Of a stretch of DNA of 15,538 bases, positions 8,460-9,395 are shown piece by piece. This stretch comes from Clostridiales bacterium. GTDB lineage: Bacteria; Bacillota_A; Clostridia; Peptostreptococcales; Anaerovoracaceae. Every line of letters begins with the position of its first letter. The first letter of the stretch is position 1. The notes below the pieces were generated by a model. It was not told the origin of the DNA and searched no databases. It saw only the letters and a list, made by a program, of their open reading frames with translations. Position numbers and translations under genes: made by a program. The stretch covers positions 1 through 15,538 of the forward strand of contig JAAZHB010000149.1 in the NCBI GenBank assembly GCA_012510935.1. The letters run 5' to 3'.

Positions 8460-9395
8460 TTATCTTATCTTTTCAATCACTCTCAGCTTTGCGCTTCTTG
8501 CTCTTGGATTAGTCTCTAGTTCCTCTTCTGATGGAGCTATTGGTTTCTTTGTAATCTTTCTTATATCTGTTGTCTTACCGCATACACATACTGGAAACTC
8601 CTTAGGACATGTACATGGATTTAGTCTTTTATCAAATTCAACCTTTACGATTCTGTCCTCAAGGGAGTGGAATGTAATGATTGCTAATCTTCCCCCAACC
8701 TCTAGTAAATCCGGAAGTTCTCTTACCGCTTTTCTCAAGTGATCAAGTTCTGAATTAACTTCGATCCTAATTGCTTGAAATGTTCTTTTCGCTGGATGAG
8801 GACCCGTTCTTCGAGCTTTAGCCGGAATAGCAGCCTTTATAATTTCTACTAACTCTCCGGTTGTCTGAATTGGCTTTTCATTCCTAGCCTTCACTATGAA
8901 TGTTGCTATTCGTGAAGCCCATTACTCTTCGCCGTATTCTCTAATAATTCTATAGATGTCATTTTCTGAATATTCATTAACAACATCGTATGCTGTAAGA
9001 GAATCGTCTGCATTCATACGCATATCCAATGCAGCTTCATTCATATACGAGAACCCGCGCTCTGCATTATCTAGCTGGAAAGACGATACTCCAATATCTA
9101 GCAAAATGCCTGACACCTTTCCACCAGCCGCAAGTTCAATCGTTTGAGTGTCGCTGTAGTTCGTATGAACATATTTCTTCTGACAGTTATATTTCTCAAG
9201 TCGCTTGCTTGCCGCCTCAATAGCTGCAGTGTCTCTATCAACACCAATCAGTAGCCCACTTTCGCCAAGCCTCTCACAAATGCCTGATGAATGTCCCCCT
9301 CCGCCGAGAGTTCCATCAACATATATACCGTCTGACTTGATATTCAAGCTCTCAATTATTTCGTTATATAGGACCGGTACATGTGAAAATTCCAT
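8460..9395 (-). pseudogene. rsmH: RsmH (MraW), 16S rRNA m4C1402 methyltransferase, interrupted by an in-frame stop
   Basis: RsmH methylates N4 of C1402 in 16S rRNA using S-adenosylmethionine. Read as one frame the gene has 311 sense or stop codons before its final TAA, the normal length. The first part has HVPVLYNEIIESL, the SAM-binding VDGTLGGGGHSS, LDIGVSSFQLDNAERGFS and LDMRMN. After IIREYGEE comes TAA at 8924-8922 (codon 158), then in the same frame WASRIATFIVKARNEKPI. The rest is RsmH too: HPAKRTFQAIRIEVNSEL, GGRLAIITFHSLEDRIVK, a Cys-rich insert (NPCTCPKEFPVCVCG) and NPRARSAKLRVIEK. Homologues have Arg or Lys at the stop position, so AAA to TAA is a likely change. The only nearby restart is a GTG at 8894 without a good ribosome site, and the first piece lacks the C-terminal catalytic region. 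The gene start has AGGAG about 7 nt upstream. Either a true nonsense mutation or a base-call error. Confidence 0.92.

Follow-up and report, generated by a model that had tools for sequence, protein, structure and literature searches.

RsmH (MraW) is the 16S rRNA (cytosine(1402)-N(4))-methyltransferase described by the profiles TIGR00006 and Methyltransf_5 (PF01795), and is established as the enzyme that places an N4-methyl group on C1402 of 16S rRNA. Members with solved structures include 3TKA, 1M6Y and 1N2X. In Bacillus subtilis, loss-of-function alleles of mraW show that absence of the enzyme is compatible with growth, and the preprint that describes them reports only minor growth defects upon deletion of RsmH in both Escherichia coli and B. 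subtilis (PMC13317604); E. coli knock-outs are likewise described as viable with reduced growth (PMC5053481). A second relevant precedent comes from genome assemblies rather than from strains: many internal-stop pseudogenes annotated in bacterial assemblies are assembly errors, according to Cooley and Wright 2024 (PMC11017572).

The window (the whole stretch of 15,538 nucleotides analysed here) contains an rsmH gene that likewise sits between mraZ and ftsL and whose two halves jointly cover nearly the whole family profile, but which differs by one in-frame stop at codon 158. The B. subtilis alleles are studied laboratory alleles (PMC13317604), whereas the stop described here stands on a single uncorroborated contig. 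It resembles the spurious internal-stop pseudogenes in having a single stop in an otherwise unchanged gene of which near-identical copies are intact (PMC11017572). Most likely the stop stems from faulty assembly or base calling, or is an isolated mutation, and does not reflect new biology; whether artefact or mutation, it is ordinary.

A single in-frame stop codon in rsmH

Translation of the rsmH frame gives 311 positions and a terminal stop, with one further stop between the residues YGEE and WASRIA (Table 1). RsmH homology is present on either side of this TAA with no insertion or deletion, and when 22 intact RsmH proteins are aligned with it, no gap falls at the site and all 22 have lysine in the stop column. 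TIGR00006 is matched by the two pieces at profile positions 5-158 and 170-309 of 310, and PF01795 at 1-156 and 168-309 of 309; each piece alone exceeds the TIGR00006 cut-off of 154.3, with 174.6 bits for the N-terminal and 175.4 bits for the C-terminal one. The first piece retains the glycine-rich motif, and the second has the conserved TFQAIRIEVN and ITFHSLEDRIVK stretches. Judging by RsmH structures, the enzyme presumably needs both halves. The first-pass annotation had described a lone in-frame TAA with no indel and with homology on both sides, and the translation, the profile matches and the alignment all bear this out.

Table 1. Positions in the window of the interrupted rsmH gene, its pieces and its neighbours
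Feature	Position	Strand	Basis
rsmH (mraW), interrupted frame, 312 codons including terminal stop	8460..9395	-	translation, TIGR00006, Pfam
In-frame TAA, codon 158, followed by T	8922..8924	-	sequence, translation
First piece, 157 aa, RsmH N-terminal half, ATG start behind GGAG	8922..9395	-	ORF, TIGR00006, Pfam
Second piece, ORF from GTG, 144 aa, RsmH C-terminal half, no evident ribosome-binding site	8460..8894	-	ORF, TIGR00006, Pfam
mraZ, open, upstream neighbour of rsmH	9410..9841	-	ORF, Pfam
ftsL-like, open, downstream neighbour of rsmH	8028..8450	-	PF04999 22.4 bits, just below cut-off 22.9
FtsI/SpoVD-type penicillin-binding protein, open, 702 aa	5814..7922	-	Pfam; one residue off database protein P0241

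Near-identical intact copies

A database of 5.8 billion proteins was searched with the read-through translation, carrying X at the stop. An intact protein of 311 aa (P0001), counted on 25 contigs, equals the window RsmH at 310/311 positions, the stop being the sole difference, in agreement with the earlier reading of the gene as otherwise well preserved. Four further near-identical intact forms, P0002-P0005, have 1, 1, 1 and 2 additional differences and were counted on 1, 2, 1 and 1 contigs respectively, giving 30 contigs in all for the five forms; these counts come from one clustered database, may be redundant, and do not represent an allele frequency. All five have lysine in the stop column and run without a break over the roughly 310 residues of a typical RsmH, a chain that in the window is broken at codon 158. 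With identities of 99-100%, they probably derive from the same species as the window.

For the reverse search we used the 157-residue product as query, with allowed lengths of 0.55 to 1.75 times the query, and took the best 120 of 2315 matches. A copy truncated at codon 158 would top this ranking, and none was found among these 120; the closest match is 74% identical, and the 157-aa product of this contig itself is also absent from the best 120 of 2315. A much shorter near-identical fragment could rank below the best 120, and would have no bearing on the stop. Since P0001 agrees at every position except the stop and no truncated near-copy lies within the matches taken, the stop is found only here, in an otherwise unchanged gene. 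This is what had been anticipated from the sequence, namely that the change was either a very recent mutation or a base-call error. A pseudogene fixed in a lineage would share its disruption with sister copies, and no shared disruption was seen in the best 120 of 2315 matches or in 80 distinct relatives (below). Nor is there the accumulation of changes past the stop that relaxed selection would leave, as the protein has 0 differences from P0001 at the 310 other positions, those downstream of the stop included.

P0001 bears the database source mark '-', which denotes a protein encoded by the window itself, although under the standard code the window does not specify the whole of P0001. Either the test applied by the tool reads through stops, or the public record of the contig has an intact gene; the mark fits an intact public contig but is no demonstration of one.

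Relatives and the stop column

Of 101 relatives that the N-terminal half matched in genome contigs, we kept the 80 best. Identity is 67-80% for the 18 at the head of the list, whose titles include Mogibacterium sp. (sheep/goat ileum), Candidatus Crickella, Bacillota bacterium and uncultured Clostridiales bacterium. We also surveyed the family of genome G002 (the genome of locus L002), in which RsmH is present in 336/349 genomes. The best match in these is 84% identical, and the species of the window is therefore not among the genomes searched.

To these 80 best relatives 10 other loci were added, and once 9 duplicates had been merged, the resulting 90 loci left 81 distinct RsmH matches; one of these (L014) does not reach the stop column owing to a run of N. 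In the 80 distinct relatives that do, the column holds arginine in 52, lysine in 24, asparagine in 2, and histidine and proline in 1 each, and a stop in none (0/80). The first-pass annotation had expected arginine or lysine at this position and had proposed comparing the codon with that of sister strains, and both the relatives and the lysine of P0001-P0005 accord with that expectation.

Internal stops in rsmH do occur elsewhere. By hand count, 1/150 of the best-scoring family matches listed has one, a TGA in genome G239, and locus L022, from a metagenome-assembled genome, has a lone in-frame stop at RsmH alignment position 273 in an otherwise well-kept gene; the two are taken to be one case, as their start coordinates agree. 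A lone rsmH stop is thus seen in roughly one in a hundred such assemblies, whatever the cause, a figure that may be low since a best-scoring list favours intact genes. One further locus is unusual in its assembly. On a Merdimmobilis hominis scaffold (L073), the 3674-base stretch 4116-7789 that bears rsmH has a perfect tandem copy 3675 bases downstream, and the locus also has 1503 Ns; the tandem repeat is probably a scaffolding artefact.

Explanations for the stop codon

We consider it probable that the TAA is a lone artefact of base calling, of the assembly consensus or of later sequence handling. If so, the DNA of the cell would have no stop here, and a Mogibacterium-like bacterium would carry an rsmH that is normal in all other respects; cells of the living population would make from it one RsmH chain of 311 residues, predicted to methylate C1402 of 16S rRNA at N4. 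In favour of this reading are the intact near-identical copies, the absence of a truncated one from the best 120 of 2315 matches, the agreement with P0001 at every other position, the lone stop in the assembly of a relative, and the published finding that many internal stops are products of assembly error (PMC11017572). About 4.5% of single substitutions in the coding DNA of the window give a stop (1966/43983), and stray base errors will therefore yield such stops in a large scan. Two observations speak against an artefact. The stop site lies outside any homopolymer, and nothing in the window points to frequent errors, because its other genes are open and the penicillin-binding protein is one residue off P0241 over 702 aa. 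As an artefact, the stop would serve only as a warning against trusting a lone stop on a single contig.

The alternative that survives best, which we regard as possible but not probable, is a genuine and very recent nonsense mutation private to the strain, in which RsmH is lost, C1402 retains the 2'-O-methyl alone, and initiation and decoding are mildly altered in a cell that nonetheless survives. The lack of a general excess of errors in the window is consistent with such a mutation, and the want of a good restart predicts a real loss of the enzyme. It had been noted beforehand that bacteria tolerate the loss of RsmH, and the reports on E. coli and B. subtilis agree with this; because deletion there causes only minor growth defects or reduced growth, the loss would be survivable if the stop is real (PMC13317604, PMC5053481). 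Against a private mutation are the absence of a truncated near-copy from the best 120 of 2315 matches, compared with 30 contigs for the intact near-identical forms, and the retention of RsmH by nearly all genomes of the family surveyed. The analyses run do not separate an artefact well from a private mutation. Were the stop real, nature would have supplied a strain that lacks m4C1402, in which the role of a nearly universal modification could be tested outside the laboratory.

Recoding, in which a suppressor tRNA or programmed read-through would let TAA be read as an amino acid and full-length RsmH be made, is very unlikely, in spite of the fully kept half of the gene downstream of the stop. 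A recoded codon would be expected within several genes and would not serve as the usual terminator; here the stops of the 13 reading frames that terminate in the window are TAA in 7, TAG in 5 and TGA in 1, the TAA frames including mraZ and murF as had been pointed out from the sequence, and no second gene in the window is interrupted. UAA followed by U, the context at codon 158, is generally an efficient stop. There is no tRNA within the window (ARAGORN), and RNA from the stop onward folds unremarkably (z -0.79, with 43/200 shuffles folding at least equally well). We rejected recoding and read-through on the use of TAA as an ordinary terminator, the stop-free column in the 80 distinct relatives and this unremarkable fold, and the doubt expressed earlier about recoding is thereby upheld. 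A variant in which the strain does carry the stop, and low-level RsmH arises through a UAA suppressor or through read-through that depends on context, which would couple C1402 methylation to termination efficiency, strikes us as more far-fetched still.

Least credible of all is a split enzyme whose two separately made pieces cooperate: both are open and score above the family cut-off, but the only in-frame ATG, GTG or TTG within the first 50 codons past the stop is the GTG at codon 168, with no ribosome-binding sequence apparent by eye in the 20 bases ahead of it (on which ground a restart was rejected, and as foreseen when the second piece was said to lack a good one), and the one internal stop among the 150 best-scoring matches listed lies at a different place, with none at the column in the 80 distinct relatives. 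The break at codon 158 falls inside what we take, from RsmH structures, to be a domain. The TAA overlaps an ATG in another frame (TAATG), which by eye terminates after 12 codons.

Gene neighbourhood

The minus strand of the window carries a division and cell-wall cluster of mraZ, rsmH, ftsL, a SpoVD-type penicillin-binding protein gene, murF, mraY, murD, ftsW and the start of murG. Upstream of the cluster are genes for an acyl-ACP thioesterase, a short-chain dehydrogenase and an NhaC-type antiporter, a uridine-kinase-like gene, and one frame without a Pfam match. The names follow Pfam families and what we take to be the usual order of this cluster. The genes other than rsmH are open across the regions that match their families, and murG is truncated at the end of the window.

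A phage or plasmid origin was rejected, as the window has no megablast match among phage or plasmid records. When the C-terminal rsmH piece was compared with viral contigs, 7 stretches fit a pattern and 0 were confirmed as relatives, and Rfam gave no match in the window at the gathering threshold. A minus-strand frame of 111 aa (15203-15538) leaves the window edge and has no Pfam match. The ftsL-like frame is listed with a TTG start, and by eye the ATG at codon 6, with GGAGG shortly before it, looks better.
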